The notes beneath the pieces are model-generated. The model was not told where the DNA came from. It made no database searches and saw nothing but the letters and a program-made list of their open reading frames with translations. From Mucilaginibacter sp. L196 (lineage in GTDB: Bacteria; Bacteroidota; Bacteroidia; Sphingobacteriales; Sphingobacteriaceae), in the NCBI RefSeq assembly GCF_009765905.1, contig NZ_LMUO01000015.1:746927-810926 (forward strand): a stretch of 64,000 nucleotides of DNA, read 5' to 3'. Position 1 is the first letter of the stretch. Each line of letters opens with the position of its first letter. Of the stretch, positions 283-46,103 are shown one piece after another. The position numbers and the translations under genes were made by a program.

Positions 283-1134
283 CTAGATAATTTTTTCGAT
301 AGCTGTTTTCACATTGCGGGCAAACTGTTCAGCTTCATTTTCATGTATAATAGTCACCTTTACATCATTATTGCTTTGTGATAATGTATCTTTAATAAAA
401 ATATTTAAATGTTCACTTGTCTTTGGTGACGTTGTTAGAAAAAACAAATTCATCTTTTCATTTGACGACTCAAGTTCTTTGATAATACCAGACCATTTAT
501 ATACTTTGGTTTTGATTGAATCTTCTCGTTTTAAATCAAAAGAAAGGCTTTGATAGCAGTTCCAAACTCCATTTTTCCAAGCCTTATCAAATTTAATCTG
601 ATCATTATGCGTTTTGATTGTATGATCTTTCAATCTTGGAGTAATTCCTAACCTATCAAAATGAGCTTTGTACACTTTGGTCCAAACATAGGCGTCGGTA
701 TGAACTTCTTTGCTCGCATCAATATTATATTTATCAACTAACCGTTCATATAAATCATCTAATGCTTTTCCTGCATCCAGATCTAGTCCATATTTTACAT
801 TAGAAAGGTAAAGCGCACTATCATCTTGTACTAGAATTTTTTTTGTTATATCCGACAAATTATAGTCTTTTTCGGAATCAAAAGAATTACTTGAATTGAA
901 AAAGTAAAGATCTAAGTTTACAGAGCGAATTTCCTTCTGAAAATGCTTCAGTGTGTTTAGTAAGAAATAGCCATTAAATTCCTCAAAAAAATTAGATATT
1001 CGACTAAATTTATTTAGCATCTTAGCTTCAAGGAATCGACCAGTAGGTTCAAATAATACAATGCCCACATTTACAAACTCGCCAGTAGTTCGATCGTGGA
1101 GATATCTGATGATTTGATACTCGAATTTTTTCAT
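283..1134 (-). CDS. DUF3037 family protein
   Basis: A 283-residue protein beginning MKKFEYQIIRYLHDRTTGEF and continuing VNVGIVLFEPTGRF. This opening (a YxIxRY strand, then GEFVNVGIVLF) is the hallmark of DUF3037. The molecular function is unknown. No signal peptide or membrane segment is visible, so it is probably cytosolic. Its ATG overlaps the TGA of the upstream HipA-like kinase gene (ATGA, 1131-1134), which implies translational coupling. From memory, DUF3037 genes often neighbour HipA-like kinases, and a partner or antitoxin-like role is possible but unproven. The gene is clearly AT-richer than the metabolic genes after 2.3 kb, in keeping with acquisition by transfer. It ends 18 nt from repeat A. 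Confidence 0.8.
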   Translation of the reverse strand: MKKFEYQIIRYLHDRTTGEFVNVGIVLFEPTGRFLEAKMLNKFSRISNFFEEFNGYFLLNTLKHFQKEIRSVNLDLYFFNSSNSFDSEKDYNLSDITKKILVQDDSALYLSNVKYGLDLDAGKALDDLYERLVDKYNIDASKEVHTDAYVWTKVYKAHFDRLGITPRLKDHTIKTHNDQIKFDKAWKNGVWNCYQSLSFDLKREDSIKTKVYKWSGIIKELESSNEKMNLFFLTTSPKTSEHLNIFIKDTLSQSNNDVKVTIIHENEAEQFARNVKTAIEKII

Positions 1135-1949
1135 AATAGTATCCTATTTAATTCGCTCGTAAATATATCAGCGCGTGACATTAATGTATTTAAGTGTTTT
1201 TTAATCTCGTCAACTTGTTCAGTTAACCAATCAGGAGGTAAAATGGTTTCTATTTTATCCCAAAATGAATTATCAATTAATTCAAGTTTACTTTGGAACG
1301 AAGAATAATCAAATTGCTTTCCTTTTAATCTATTGAAACAAAAATTGTCGTTAATCCAATTTAAATCTTGTGACCGAATTTTCCAAGGTTCGGAATTTCG
1401 CAAAAAGGACAATTCCATTGTAAATCCGAAAGCAAGTTCATGATCGAAAATAATTATCTCATCACCGTTCGTCAAAAAATTTGGTTTTTCAATTCTCCGA
1501 TCCGCATTGCTTATAAAAATATCGAATGCGTAAAGTTCGATAAGTTTATCTTCGAGAGAACTGCTAATTGTTTGATCTTTTATAACGGAATAATAGCCAG
1601 TTTTATATTCGTTACCGAAATTAAATCCTAAGCTATTGCTAGCAACTAGATAATTATCATTTCCTCGCATCAGTTCAACGAATTCATCTGAGATATGAAT
1701 AATTACAGGTTCGGGAACATTAAAGTCAAGTTCTTTAGCTATTAAAGCAGCAATCAACTCACGAGCACTTGCCTCTGGAGACATGCGCTGTGCTCCTATA
1801 AATTTAATAACATAATCTGACTTTATTCCAGTTTGTTCGCATATGCCTACGACAAGTTGCGGCATTGTAGTACCGGATTGAAGAATTTCGCCAAATGCCA
1901 CAGCGTGGACAGTTGGCAAGAAGTAATCAGGATGTGATAGTTTAAGCAC
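1131..1949 (-). CDS. HipA-like kinase (HipA_2 type)
   Basis: A 272-residue protein with a GTG start. A HipA/PI3K-like kinase fold is suggested by the lysine in YVIKFIG (~residue 50), the helix SARELIAALIAKELDFNVPE (~60-80), the catalytic loop ISNADRRIEKPNFL (~150) and the metal-binding IIIFDHELAF (~168). It is shorter than classical HipA (~440 residues) and matches the stand-alone HipA_2 group. HipA kinases phosphorylate aminoacyl-tRNA synthetases or related targets in toxin-antitoxin systems. Whether this one does is not known. No HipB-like helix-turn-helix gene is next to it; the partner is instead DUF3037, overlapping by 4 nt. A TAAATTTG promoter box lies ~20 nt upstream. The gene is AT-rich and enclosed by repeats A and B. 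Confidence 0.75.
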   Translation of the reverse strand: MLKLSHPDYFLPTVHAVAFGEILQSGTTMPQLVVGICEQTGIKSDYVIKFIGAQRMSPEASARELIAALIAKELDFNVPEPVIIHISDEFVELMRGNDNYLVASNSLGFNFGNEYKTGYYSVIKDQTISSSLEDKLIELYAFDIFISNADRRIEKPNFLTNGDEIIIFDHELAFGFTMELSFLRNSEPWKIRSQDLNWINDNFCFNRLKGKQFDYSSFQSKLELIDNSFWDKIETILPPDWLTEQVDEIKKHLNTLMSRADIFTSELNRILL

Positions 1950-1968: not shown

Positions 1969-1976
1969 CAAATTTA
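1969..1976 (-). promoter_or_regulatory. Bacteroidota -7 box TAAATTTG for the HipA/DUF3037 pair
   Basis: On the minus strand the sequence TAAATTTG fits the TAnnTTTG -7 consensus and lies 19 nt upstream of the GTG start at 1949. No clear TTTG -33 element is found at the usual spacing, so this is a moderate-strength prediction. Confidence 0.4.
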
Positions 1977-42232: not shown

Positions 42233-42424
42233 ATGAAAATAGTTCCTGTAGTTAGAAGGTCTGTACTTAAAGATATTGATGAGGGGTATGAAGATCTATT
42301 ATATTGGCTTTCAAAATCTCCGCAGGAACGTATGGCGGCTGTAACGCAATTGCGCTCCCATAGTCTTACCCCGGGACAACGCATCGATAAATCTGTTGTT
42401 ATAAAAAGAAAGCTTCATTCATGA
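42233..42424 (+). CDS. Small putative antitoxin-like partner of a nucleotidyltransferase
   Basis: A start at ATG 42233 (MKIVPVVRRSVLKDIDEGYE) gives 63 residues. The middle, LLYWLSKSPQERMAAVTQLR, resembles short proteins found upstream of AbiEii-like nucleotidyltransferases, usually written as a WLSxTPxER helix (from memory). Its TGA overlaps the ATG of the nucleotidyltransferase gene (ATGA 42421-42424). The gene is AT-rich. A regulatory or antitoxin role is an inference from the coupling and from general gene order. Confidence 0.6.
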   Translation: MKIVPVVRRSVLKDIDEGYEDLLYWLSKSPQERMAAVTQLRSHSLTPGQRIDKSVVIKRKLHS

Positions 42425-42879
42425 CTCTTGATAAAGATTTCGAAGACTTTGTTTTCTTATTGAACAAGTATGATGTTAATTACATGATAATTGGGGGATA
42501 TGCATTAGCTTTTCACGGCAGGCCGAGACATACGGGTGATTTAGATATTTGGATCGATGTATCTGAAGAAAACGCTCGGAAAATGTTCAATGTTATTAAT
42601 GAATTTGGACTGGCATCATTAGGTTTAAAAATTGAAGATTTTTTAGAAAAGGGGATTATTACTCAAATTGGTTATCCGCCTTTGCGAATTGATATCTTAA
42701 ATGAAATTGATGGCGTTCAGTTTAACGAAGCTTATCAAAATAAATTAATCATCGATATTGATGGTTTGCCAATAAGTTATATTAGCTTGGATGATTTGAT
42801 CAAAAACAAACAAGTTAGTGGGCGGCAAAGAGATTTAAGCGATGTAAGTGAGTTAAATAAATTAAAAAAGAATAAATAG
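42421..42879 (+). CDS. Nucleotidyltransferase (AbiEii / DUF6036-like)
   Basis: A 152-residue protein. The core reads YMIIGGYALAFHGRPRHTGD, then LDIWIDVSEENARKM, containing the GG at ~residue 23 and the DLDI pair of the polymerase-beta fold (~41-43). The later LDDLIKNKQVSGRQRDLSDV resembles the end of stand-alone AbiEii-like domains. Such enzymes add nucleotides to tRNA or proteins, and many act as toxins. Translation is coupled to the 63-residue protein before it. Compared with its neighbours the pair is AT-rich. Confidence 0.72.
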   Translation: MTLDKDFEDFVFLLNKYDVNYMIIGGYALAFHGRPRHTGDLDIWIDVSEENARKMFNVINEFGLASLGLKIEDFLEKGIITQIGYPPLRIDILNEIDGVQFNEAYQNKLIIDIDGLPISYISLDDLIKNKQVSGRQRDLSDVSELNKLKKNK

Positions 42880-42947: not shown

Positions 42948-45900
42948 ATGCAACCATCTGCCAATAAATACAACGAAAAATTTCAGGAAGCTTTAGCCAA
43001 CCTTAACCCTGAGCAGTTGGCTGCGGTTAATACAATGGATGGCCCGGTGCTGGTGGTTGCAGGGCCGGGTACTGGTAAAACCCAGATTTTGGCGGCACGT
43101 ATAGGTAAAATTTTGACCGATACCGATGCCCTGCCCAACGAAATACTTTGCCTTACTTATACCGATGCTGGCGCTATTGCCATGCGCAAGCGTTTATTTG
43201 ATTTTATTGGACCGGATGCATACCGGGTTAATATTTATACTTTCCACGCCTTTTGTAACGAGATCATCCAGGAAAACCTGGAATATTTTGGTAAACTAAA
43301 TCTGGAACCATTGTCGGAACTGGATGGCGCTATGCTGTTCCGCGAGTTGGTGGATGAATTTCCGAATGAGCATTTATTAAAGCGTTTTACAGGTGATGTT
43401 TATTTTGATGCACCACGATTAAAGCGCCTATTCTCCACCATGAAAAGTGAGGGCTGGAGTGAAGAATCTATTGCGGCAGCTGTAAAAGAATATTTAGACG
43501 ACCTACCTAATCGTGAAGAATTCATCTATAAAAGAGCCAATGCCAAAGCAGGCATAAAAATTGGCGATCCGAAGCAAAAGGATATTGATAAAGTTGCTGA
43601 AGCGATGCAAAAGCTGATGGCTGCTGTTAACGAGTATAAAAACTATTCGGCTAAAATGGCCACCAATAACTGGTATGATTATGACGACATGATCATCTGG
43701 GTGCTAAAGGCTTTCCGTGAAAACGAGGAAATATTGCGCAAATACCAGGAGCGCTATCAGTATATTTTGGTTGATGAGTTTCAGGATACCAGCGGTTCAC
43801 AAAATGAGTTGTTGAAATTTCTGCTGAACTACTGGGAAATCCCTAATGTTTTTGTGGTGGGCGATGATGATCAATCCATCTTCAAATTTCAGGGTGCTAA
43901 CATGAAAAACATCCTTGATTTTGCGAACGATTATGTGAGTACCTTACACACCGTAGTGCTTAAACACAATTACCGTTCAAATCAGCAAATTCTTGATATT
44001 TCCAAAGCGCTTATTAATAACAATAACGAGCGTTTAACCAGTCAGCTTGCGCTGGATAAAGATTTAAGAGCATCGCATCCTCGTTTCGGTGAGCTAACTG
44101 TTCAGCCCACCATTCGCGAATATGAAAACCCCGGCAAAGAGGTAGTGGACGTTGCCATGCAGATTAAAAAACTGATTGAAAAAGGCACACCGCCAAATGA
44201 AATCGCGGTGATATACCGCAATCACAGTCAGGTTGAAGAATTACTGCAATATTTAGATGTTGAGAAGATAGCCGTTAATACCAAACGTAAAATTGACATA
44301 CTGGAACAGCCTTTCGGCGAAAAGATCATCACGATTCTGCGCTACCTCGCTATGGAAATGGATTCGTCCTACAGCGGTGATGAATTGCTGTTCGAGATCA
44401 TGCATTATGATTTCTTCGGCATCGCGCCGATTGAAGTGGCTAAGGCAAGCATCGCGGTAGCAAAAGAAAACTATGCGACCGCGTCTAATAATCAGCCTAA
44501 AACATCATTACGAAGGTACGTAAGCGAAATGCGAACACCAACACAACCGGGCTTATTTGATACCGTGCAGAATGTGGAAATGAAATTCCTCATCAACAAT
44601 ATTGACTTTTTATTGAAAGAATCAGTTAGCGTTACGCTGCAACAGTTCTTCCAGCAGGTGATCGGTAAAATGGGTATCCTGCGTTACATCATGCATCAAC
44701 AAGATAAAGGTACGTACATGCAAATGTTGACTAGCTTTTTTGATTTCCTGAAAGATGAAAGCCGCAAAAATCCTGAGATAAAGCTAAGCGACCTGATATT
44801 GACCATCGACCTGATGAAAAAGAATAATATCCGTTTGAGCTTAAATCAAATGATATTTTCTGAAAAAGGCATCAACTTTTTAACCGCCCACGGCTCAAAA
44901 GGATTGGAATATGAGTATGTGTTTTTCATCGGTTGTGATAAAAAAACGTGGGACAGCAAAGGCCGGAATACAGGCTTCAGTTATCCGGATACCCTAACGC
45001 AAACTAAAGGTGATGACATCGCCCAAAAAGAAGAATCGCGTAGGTTATTTTATGTGGCGCTTACCCGTGCTAAACAATGTTTGATGATCTCTTATTCAAG
45101 TACCGATAAAAACGGCAAGGATCAGGAATCGTCGCAATTTGTAGGGGAAATTTTGGCCGATACGCATTTACAGGTACAACATCCACAGGTTAGCGAAGAG
45201 GATATGATCGGCTTTTACGCCACCCAGTTTAATGTGGATGATAAGCCAAAAGTTGAATTGCTGGATACCAACTATATCAATCAACTCCTGCAAAATTATA
45301 CCCTTTCGGTAACACATCTGAATAATTACCTGGATTGCCCGTTGCGGTTTTATTTCCAGTGTTTAATCAGGGTGCCATCGGGTAAAAGTCCTTCCGCTAC
45401 GTTTGGGCAGGCGGTGCATTGGGCGCTTAACCGTACATTTAAAAAGCTGAAGGAGTGGGGCGATGAATTCCCGCCTACTGAGGAGTTTATGAAGGAATTC
45501 CGCTGGTATATGTACCGCAACCGGGATTCATTTACTAAAGAAGAATTCAAATTGCGTCTTGCCTACGGCGAAAAAATAATGCCAGCCTACTACGAGCAAA
45601 ATATTACGCATTGGAACAAAGTTGCTGTAACCGAACGTGCTATTAAAAATATTGAAATACAAGGTGTGCCGATTAAAGGTAACCTGGATAAAATAGAGTT
45701 TGAAGGCAAGAATGTAACCGTTATCGACTATAAAACTGGTAAACTTAAAAATGCCAAAGATAAACTGGTAGGTCCGACAAATGATCAGCCCAACGGTGGC
45801 GATTATTGGCGCCAGGCTGTTTTCTACAAAATACTAATAGACCACGACCGCACAAACGATTGGCAGGTGGTGGGTACAGTGTTTGATTTTGTGGAACCGA

Positions 45901-46103
45901 TAAAAGATAACGAGTACCACAAAGAAAAAATATTTATCACTGCCGAAGACACCGAAACAGTTACAGAACAGATCACCTCAGTATACAAAAAAATAATGGC
46001 GCATGATTTTAATACCGGCTGCGGTAAAAAGGAATGTGACTGGTGCCATTTTGTAAAAAGCAATTTTAACCAGGTTGAAGGTGTAATGGAGGAAGCCGAA
46101 TAA
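42948..46103 (+). CDS. UvrD/Rep-type helicase fused to an iron-sulphur PD-(D/E)XK nuclease
   Basis: A 1051-residue protein. Superfamily-1A helicase motifs are ordered: Walker A VVAGPGTGKTQ (~37), YTFHAFCNEI, VDEFQDT (~275), VVGDDDQSIFKFQGAN (~302), HGSKGLEYE (~647) and FYVALTRAK (~701). The C-terminal ~260 residues form a RecB-like nuclease: THLNNYLDCPLRFYFQCLI (~790), VIDYKTGKL (~925) with the D/K pair, and CGKKECDWC (~1025). The Cys of LDCPL together with C-x4-C-x2-C at the end are the four ligands of an AddB-type [4Fe-4S] cluster. The enzyme should unwind and degrade DNA. It is an all-in-one relative of AddAB, here with no separate partner gene. Confidence 0.88.
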   Translation: MQPSANKYNEKFQEALANLNPEQLAAVNTMDGPVLVVAGPGTGKTQILAARIGKILTDTDALPNEILCLTYTDAGAIAMRKRLFDFIGPDAYRVNIYTFHAFCNEIIQENLEYFGKLNLEPLSELDGAMLFRELVDEFPNEHLLKRFTGDVYFDAPRLKRLFSTMKSEGWSEESIAAAVKEYLDDLPNREEFIYKRANAKAGIKIGDPKQKDIDKVAEAMQKLMAAVNEYKNYSAKMATNNWYDYDDMIIWVLKAFRENEEILRKYQERYQYILVDEFQDTSGSQNELLKFLLNYWEIPNVFVVGDDDQSIFKFQGANMKNILDFANDYVSTLHTVVLKHNYRSNQQILDISKALINNNNERLTSQLALDKDLRASHPRFGELTVQPTIREYENPGKEVVDVAMQIKKLIEKGTPPNEIAVIYRNHSQVEELLQYLDVEKIAVNTKRKIDILEQPFGEKIITILRYLAMEMDSSYSGDELLFEIMHYDFFGIAPIEVAKASIAVAKENYATASNNQPKTSLRRYVSEMRTPTQPGLFDTVQNVEMKFLINNIDFLLKESVSVTLQQFFQQVIGKMGILRYIMHQQDKGTYMQMLTSFFDFLKDESRKNPEIKLSDLILTIDLMKKNNIRLSLNQMIFSEKGINFLTAHGSKGLEYEYVFFIGCDKKTWDSKGRNTGFSYPDTLTQTKGDDIAQKEESRRLFYVALTRAKQCLMISYSSTDKNGKDQESSQFVGEILADTHLQVQHPQVSEEDMIGFYATQFNVDDKPKVELLDTNYINQLLQNYTLSVTHLNNYLDCPLRFYFQCLIRVPSGKSPSATFGQAVHWALNRTFKKLKEWGDEFPPTEEFMKEFRWYMYRNRDSFTKEEFKLRLAYGEKIMPAYYEQNITHWNKVAVTERAIKNIEIQGVPIKGNLDKIEFEGKNVTVIDYKTGKLKNAKDKLVGPTNDQPNGGDYWRQAVFYKILIDHDRTNDWQVVGTVFDFVEPIKDNEYHKEKIFITAEDTETVTEQITSVYKKIMAHDFNTGCGKKECDWCHFVKSNFNQVEGVMEEAE

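Follow-up and report, generated by a model that had tools for sequence, protein, structure and literature searches.

A HipA-like kinase and DUF3037 gene pair of the PDC-M66 type in Mucilaginibacter sp. L196, and a short relative found in nearly every genome of the genus

The window analysed here is a 64,000-nucleotide stretch of DNA from Mucilaginibacter sp. L196. It carries a two-gene pair consisting of a HipA-like kinase gene and a gene for a DUF3037 protein of long form, with the following features:

1131 to 1949, minus strand: HipA_2 (HipA-like) kinase gene, GTG start, 272 aa, matching PDC-M66A
283 to 1134, minus strand: DUF3037 gene, long form, ATG start, 283 aa, matching PDC-M66B
1131 to 1134, minus strand: ATGA overlap of the kinase stop and the DUF3037 start, from ORF coordinates and coding-strand letters
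1969 to 1976, minus strand: candidate -7 promoter box TAAATTTG, 19 nt before the kinase GTG

Among the window ORFs the kinase gene comes first and the DUF3037 gene second, and the four-base ATGA overlap proposed in the initial annotation was found on the coding strand at 1131-1134. The GTG start of the kinase is well supported because similarity across Mucilaginibacter long-form loci begins at this codon, with three other loci similar downstream of the GTG and dissimilar upstream. The sequence TAnnTTTG is the Bacteroidota -7 promoter consensus. Three of the four Mucilaginibacter long-form loci have such a box ending 18-19 nt ahead of the GTG (19 nt in the window, 18 nt in two of the three others), and one occurs within 17-20 nt of the GTG in 0.1-0.8% of shuffles. 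The common promoter that had been proposed for the two genes is thus plausible from the sequence at three loci, while no TAnnTTTG box precedes the GTG in the fourth (G008). A candidate operator of two TGCGCA boxes 5' of the window kinase was rejected, being absent from the three other loci of the genus.

The initial annotation had also stated that HipB is missing. A family scan of six small ORFs neighbouring the pair returned no HTH family and no HipB, no HipB gene stood beside the window kinase in the ORF lists, and the three other loci show no likeness in the DNA preceding the kinase start, all in agreement with that statement. No retron reverse transcriptase adjoined the pair among the ORFs listed, and no dense defence island was seen around it when the window ORF list was inspected by eye. 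Further along the window, positions 42948-46103 encode a UvrD helicase of 1051 aa whose C-terminal domain is of the PD-(D/E)XK type, and a DUF6036 nucleotidyltransferase gene (42421-42879) precedes it; the helicase scores against GajB helicase models and may be a repair protein. A ParE-family toxin gene (L064:61-375) lies about 9.9 kb to the left of the window.

In the window kinase, HipA_2 was the sole Pfam family listed (E 7e-15), and no N-terminal HipA domain was found by Pfam in its 272 residues. The PADLOC profile PDC-M66A was matched with an E-value of 8.6e-111 across residues 4-271 of 272. The protein carries K49, E64, D143, N148, D150, R151, N157, and D169. All of these except E64 were invariant in 118/118 distinct paired kinases, and position 64 was E in 115 and D in the remaining three; by script class these kinases comprised 95 short and 23 long forms, one of the 95 being a split case from Hymenobacter. 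All eight residues were invariant in 19/19 diverse kinases, so that the HipA catalytic loop and metal-binding Asp described initially are present and conserved. Searches of solved structures with single sequences yielded no usable match. When a profile of the 19 kinases was compared with the PDB, the matches were to PI4K type 2 (E 0.0016), actin-fragmin kinase (E 0.022), and CtkA (E 0.17), and the PI4K match ran through the N-x-D-R loop and the D that comes after it, where we take the aligned PI4K motifs to be catalytic and metal-binding. An AlphaFold2 model of the kinase, built from a two-row alignment, was poor (mean pLDDT 42.3).

The partner protein matched Pfam DUF3037, the only family listed (E 4.2e-18), and the PADLOC profile PDC-M66B with an E-value of 9.4e-112 across residues 1-281 of 283. 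Its DUF3037 domain spans residues 6-133 and is followed by a C-terminal domain of ~150 aa. Distinct DUF3037 proteins from the loci examined were bimodal in length (119-139 aa and 274-372 aa), and the DUF3037 domain (about residues 1-133) was common to the long and short forms, with R10, E19, F20, N22, and G24 invariant in 19/19 aligned partners. Within the ~150 residues added by the long form, a stretch around AWKNG and PLSFDL is conserved. Both window frames are intact and nearly full-length against PDC-M66, with all catalytic residues kept, and this makes it very improbable that the pair is decaying and functionless, as might be suspected from a related pair in G090 whose kinase frame ends early and from a Hymenobacter plasmid copy whose partner is split.

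The AlphaFold2 model of the partner was likewise built from a two-row alignment and was poor overall (mean pLDDT 44.6), with values of ~50-71 in the C-terminal part. When this low-confidence C-terminal part (residues about 145-283) was searched using Foldseek, the best match was XisH (E 3.5e-3). Using VIA, Z-scores reached at most 7.5, with Cdn1, VC1899, FokI, BstEII, and Mus81/Eme1 at about 7; the caution line for VIA is Z 8, and unrelated GTPases scored the same Z as these nuclease-like matches. The best fold matches were mostly restriction-endonuclease-like (XisH, Cdn1, Can2, FokI, BspD6I, and Mus81/Eme1), proteins that presumably have one fold in common. No conserved D/E-x-K was present in the DUF3037 alignment. 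The models thus give a hint that the long-form C-terminal domain may have a nuclease-like, perhaps DNA-binding, fold. No Pfam match to DUF1829 was obtained in the window partner or in the other partners scanned. A DUF1829 identity for the long C-terminal domain was tried and rejected, as hhalign against DUF1829 proteins from 23 of 395 genomes gave a probability of 0.1, no better than two controls.

The initial annotation stated that the pairing recurs in other bacteria, and it does. Both genes were present in 63/63 loci (L001-L063). In a draw of 395 genomes from the phylum, DUF3037 matches were obtained in 67 frames of short and 24 of long form, and 67/67 short and 20/24 long ones were directly preceded by a HipA_2 match, within 1 kb and in the same orientation; no pair in reversed order was reported. 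Gene-neighbourhood counts had been proposed as a check, and 87 of the 102 HipA_2 matches in this draw were accompanied by a DUF3037 match. On inspection of the 19 exceptions, several HipA_2 kinases were found to have a partner of ~287 aa missed by Pfam, and ten distinct ones stand alone. Four long DUF3037 genes were without an adjacent HipA_2 match (L135, L136, L137, and L138, from G551, G574, G608, and G634), and with 4/24 long forms in this state DUF3037 may also act without a HipA_2 kinase.

Several of the unpaired loci have features of their own. The lone long DUF3037 gene of L136 is directly behind a type I hsdR-like gene, and that of L138 follows a restriction-methylation-like gene and a DUF3800 gene. 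HipA_2 kinases without a DUF3037 partner were seen in other families of the phylum (L140, L147, and L149; L146, L148, and L150), the first three apparently having a C-terminal extension in common. In G571 (L153:2923-4715), a HipA_2-like kinase (PDC-M03A) is followed by a HIRAN-domain protein (PDC-M03B), again a HipA-type pair without HipB.

The window pair is a member of PDC-M66 and is close to HipAD (reportedly Brenes and Laub, 2025), and the system type is already known because two papers test pairs of a HipA-like kinase and a DUF3037 protein. The description of DUF3037 as a family without known function, given in the initial annotation, has accordingly been overtaken by the passages of these papers that deal with Retron-Sda1 and with DS-6/HipAD. 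According to the relevant passages of the first, Retron-Sda1 includes genes for a HipA-like kinase and for a DUF3037 protein, which were matched to PDC-M66; its defence against Bas51 requires the kinase but neither the reverse transcriptase nor the ncRNA; and defence is abolished when the kinase is deleted, whereas deletion of DUF3037 is toxic (PMC12548924). As described in passages of the second, DS-6, renamed HipAD, consists of a HipA-related kinase and a DUF3037/DUF1829 protein; defence is lost when the kinase is catalytically mutated, the two proteins form a complex in AlphaFold3 predictions, and DNA contacts are predicted for DS-6B (PMC13092281).

The window pair was likened to both systems through these descriptions and through the PDC-M66 profiles. 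Its proteins match both profiles nearly full-length and share with PDC-M66 and Retron-Sda1 the order of kinase then DUF3037, with overlap, but unlike Retron-Sda1 the pair has no adjoining reverse transcriptase in the listed ORFs. As in the published portrayal of DS-6/HipAD, where kinase activity is required for defence, a HipA-related kinase is joined to a DUF3037 protein without HipB; DS-6B differs in being annotated also as DUF1829, for which the window partner has no match. HipBA of E. coli, as outlined in passages of PMC13092281 and PMC10627512, similarly combines a HipA-superfamily kinase with a neighbouring partner gene, but the window pair has no HTH HipB as its partner protein, and its kinase is of the small HipA_2 form. 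HipBST, in the passages that describe it, also has a small HipA-like kinase and an antitoxin that is not HipB, but is made up of three genes, and HipS is the counterpart of the HipA N-subdomain 1 and not DUF3037 (PMC10627512). The comparison with HipS rests on that description and on the family match, DUF3037 being the sole Pfam match of the window partner. With the window pair, the known range of a recently described defence system comes to include Mucilaginibacter.

A long DUF3037 form was present in 4 of 90 Mucilaginibacter genomes, its own included (G000, G008, G031, and G048). The window pair has a GC content of ~0.31, lower than that of most of its flanks, which lie at 0.39-0.47 (about 42% around). 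The left anchor gene was found in 33/46 and the right-hand gene in 22/46 genomes of the genus. In left-anchor loci of seven relatives an rsmI-like neighbour was kept; the sequence beyond it differs, and the pair is missing there. In total, the pair was absent from eight relative loci bearing the left or right anchor (L184 having the right-hand gene alone), and no clean empty site was found among these eight. In IMG/VR, 46 loci on viral contigs encode long DUF3037 relatives, with the kinase directly upstream in 44 and one of the two exceptions starting at the end of the available DNA; these loci are not independent, since many are near-identical. Phage searches gave no usable match, nor did searches of viral contigs with single proteins or of E. 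coli genomes with one viral-contig copy.

Neighbours of the long pair in relatives include SIR2/ThsA-like and E1-like proteins. A 620-aa SIR2-domain protein, ThsA-like by PADLOC, adjoins the long pair of G048 (L065:6959-8821). In the related long pair of G090 (L068:9464-10988), the kinase frame stops at 166 aa before the partner, and this is possibly a broken copy.

Based on composition, distribution, and relatives on viral contigs, the window pair is probably a foreign, horizontally acquired defence module, and it looks like a recent arrival at its site. The low GC content and sporadic distribution suggest that it would have entered the genome by horizontal transfer.

Most likely, the window pair combines a kinase toxin with a DUF3037 antitoxin that holds it in check, and serves against phage. 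The kinase would be the toxin and, by analogy with HipA and HipT, would probably phosphorylate a translation factor and so halt growth. The DUF3037 protein would be produced from the kinase transcript and would bind the kinase and keep it quiet, as is in print for relatives. Infection may then free the kinase, and the infection would end together with the cell. For the window pair, what the kinase acts on, what triggers it, and what the C-terminal domain does are inferred. The suggestion in the initial annotation that DUF3037 restrains the kinase gains support by analogy from Retron-Sda1, in the passages reporting that deletion of DUF3037 is toxic (PMC12548924).

That same toxicity fits restraint and weighs against a second reading, in which the DUF3037 protein is not an antitoxin but a phage sensor or targeting subunit that would use its C-terminal domain to bind DNA and to direct or activate the kinase; both roles could hold, however. 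This reading, which we put forward tentatively and at less than an even chance, draws on the ~150 aa that the long form adds beyond the DUF3037 domain, on the solo long DUF3037 genes that exist without a kinase, and on the predicted DNA contact of DS-6B in the passages describing it (PMC13092281). It also draws on the resemblance of the low-confidence C-terminal model to restriction-endonuclease-like folds, but those matches are below the caution line and are equalled by unrelated GTPases.

A second HipA_2-DUF3037 pair was found elsewhere in the same genome (G000):

C13:1055619-1056714 (L001:1495-2638): second HipA_2-DUF3037 pair, with a DUF3037 protein of 127 aa

Two classes unforeseen by the initial annotation are thus present, a sporadic long form in the window and a near-universal short form elsewhere in the genome. 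The short pair resembles the long pair of the window in gene order, catalytic residues, and DUF3037 domain, but differs in having a bare partner without the C-terminal domain (119-139 aa across relatives), in being near-universal in the genus, in forming its own clade, and in having no viral-contig match. It was present in 84/90 genomes of the genus by both the kinase and the DUF3037 search, and the six genomes without it were the same in both searches, all drafts of at least 170 contigs. The short pair is catalytically intact and may extend to much of Sphingobacteriaceae; a DUF3037 match, long or short, was obtained in 211/251 genomes of the family (206/236 good ones). In the kinase tree, from which only the unity of the short clade was used given many long branches and a warning of false joins, 94 of 95 short rows formed one clade, with the long forms outside. 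The odd row was from a Hymenobacter plasmid, with an annotated short DUF3037 gene and a separate small gene beside it, and for this reason its partner looks like a split long form.

The GC content of the short kinase (0.427) is close to that of its surroundings (0.430, from a flank of only 356 bases). No relative was found on viral contigs when the short DUF3037 alignment was used as the query, but a Bacteroides finegoldii plasmid has an annotated short pair. Synteny was compared with one control gene, aminopeptidase P, in the 19 genus genomes having both genes, of 52 with the short kinase. A similar neighbour within 1 kb upstream of the short pair was seen in 9/171 genome pairs and downstream in 8/171, against 171/171 and 137/171, respectively, for the control. 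Across 20 kb, four members of the genus had next to no common neighbour except the short pair itself. Identity of the short kinase tracked that of the control protein weakly (Spearman 0.15, p 0.055, 171 pairs), a pattern that would fit transfer of the short pair. Because the short pair is nearly always present, single, and intact and is seldom in the same place, it fits a mobile or addictive module, and such presence without a fixed place would be unusual for a housekeeping gene. No account of the short pair was found in passages on DUF3037 or by title and abstract, in a search with preprints and most subscription journals outside its scope.

The near-universal and catalytically intact short pair is also what might favour a third reading of the window pair, as a regulatory kinase and partner that is not a toxin-antitoxin system and for which defence is a side effect or absent. 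We regard this as unlikely: the long form of the window has a sporadic distribution, a low GC content, and relatives on viral contigs, and both toxicity and defence are reported for relatives in the passages describing them (PMC12548924, PMC13092281).

Taken with the preferred reading of the window pair as a kinase toxin with a DUF3037 antitoxin, a joint reading of the two forms can be offered with some doubt, as a conjecture that may well fail. The long form would be a mobile phage-defence module, and the short form would be either an addiction module swept to near-fixation or a HipA-type kinase used in ordinary physiology. On this view, bare DUF3037 would be the smallest kinase-binding antitoxin, and the long form would have gained its C-terminal domain as a phage sensor.

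Although it looks ordinary, the long pair of the window is a good representative of PDC-M66, and the short near-universal form is the part that deserves follow-up. A natural comparison is offered by one genome in which the long pair and the short pair each have an intact kinase, and it could separate the part of the DUF3037 protein that restrains the kinase from the part that senses phage. It also raises the question of why a toxin-like kinase stays in almost every Mucilaginibacter species without a fixed place in the chromosome.
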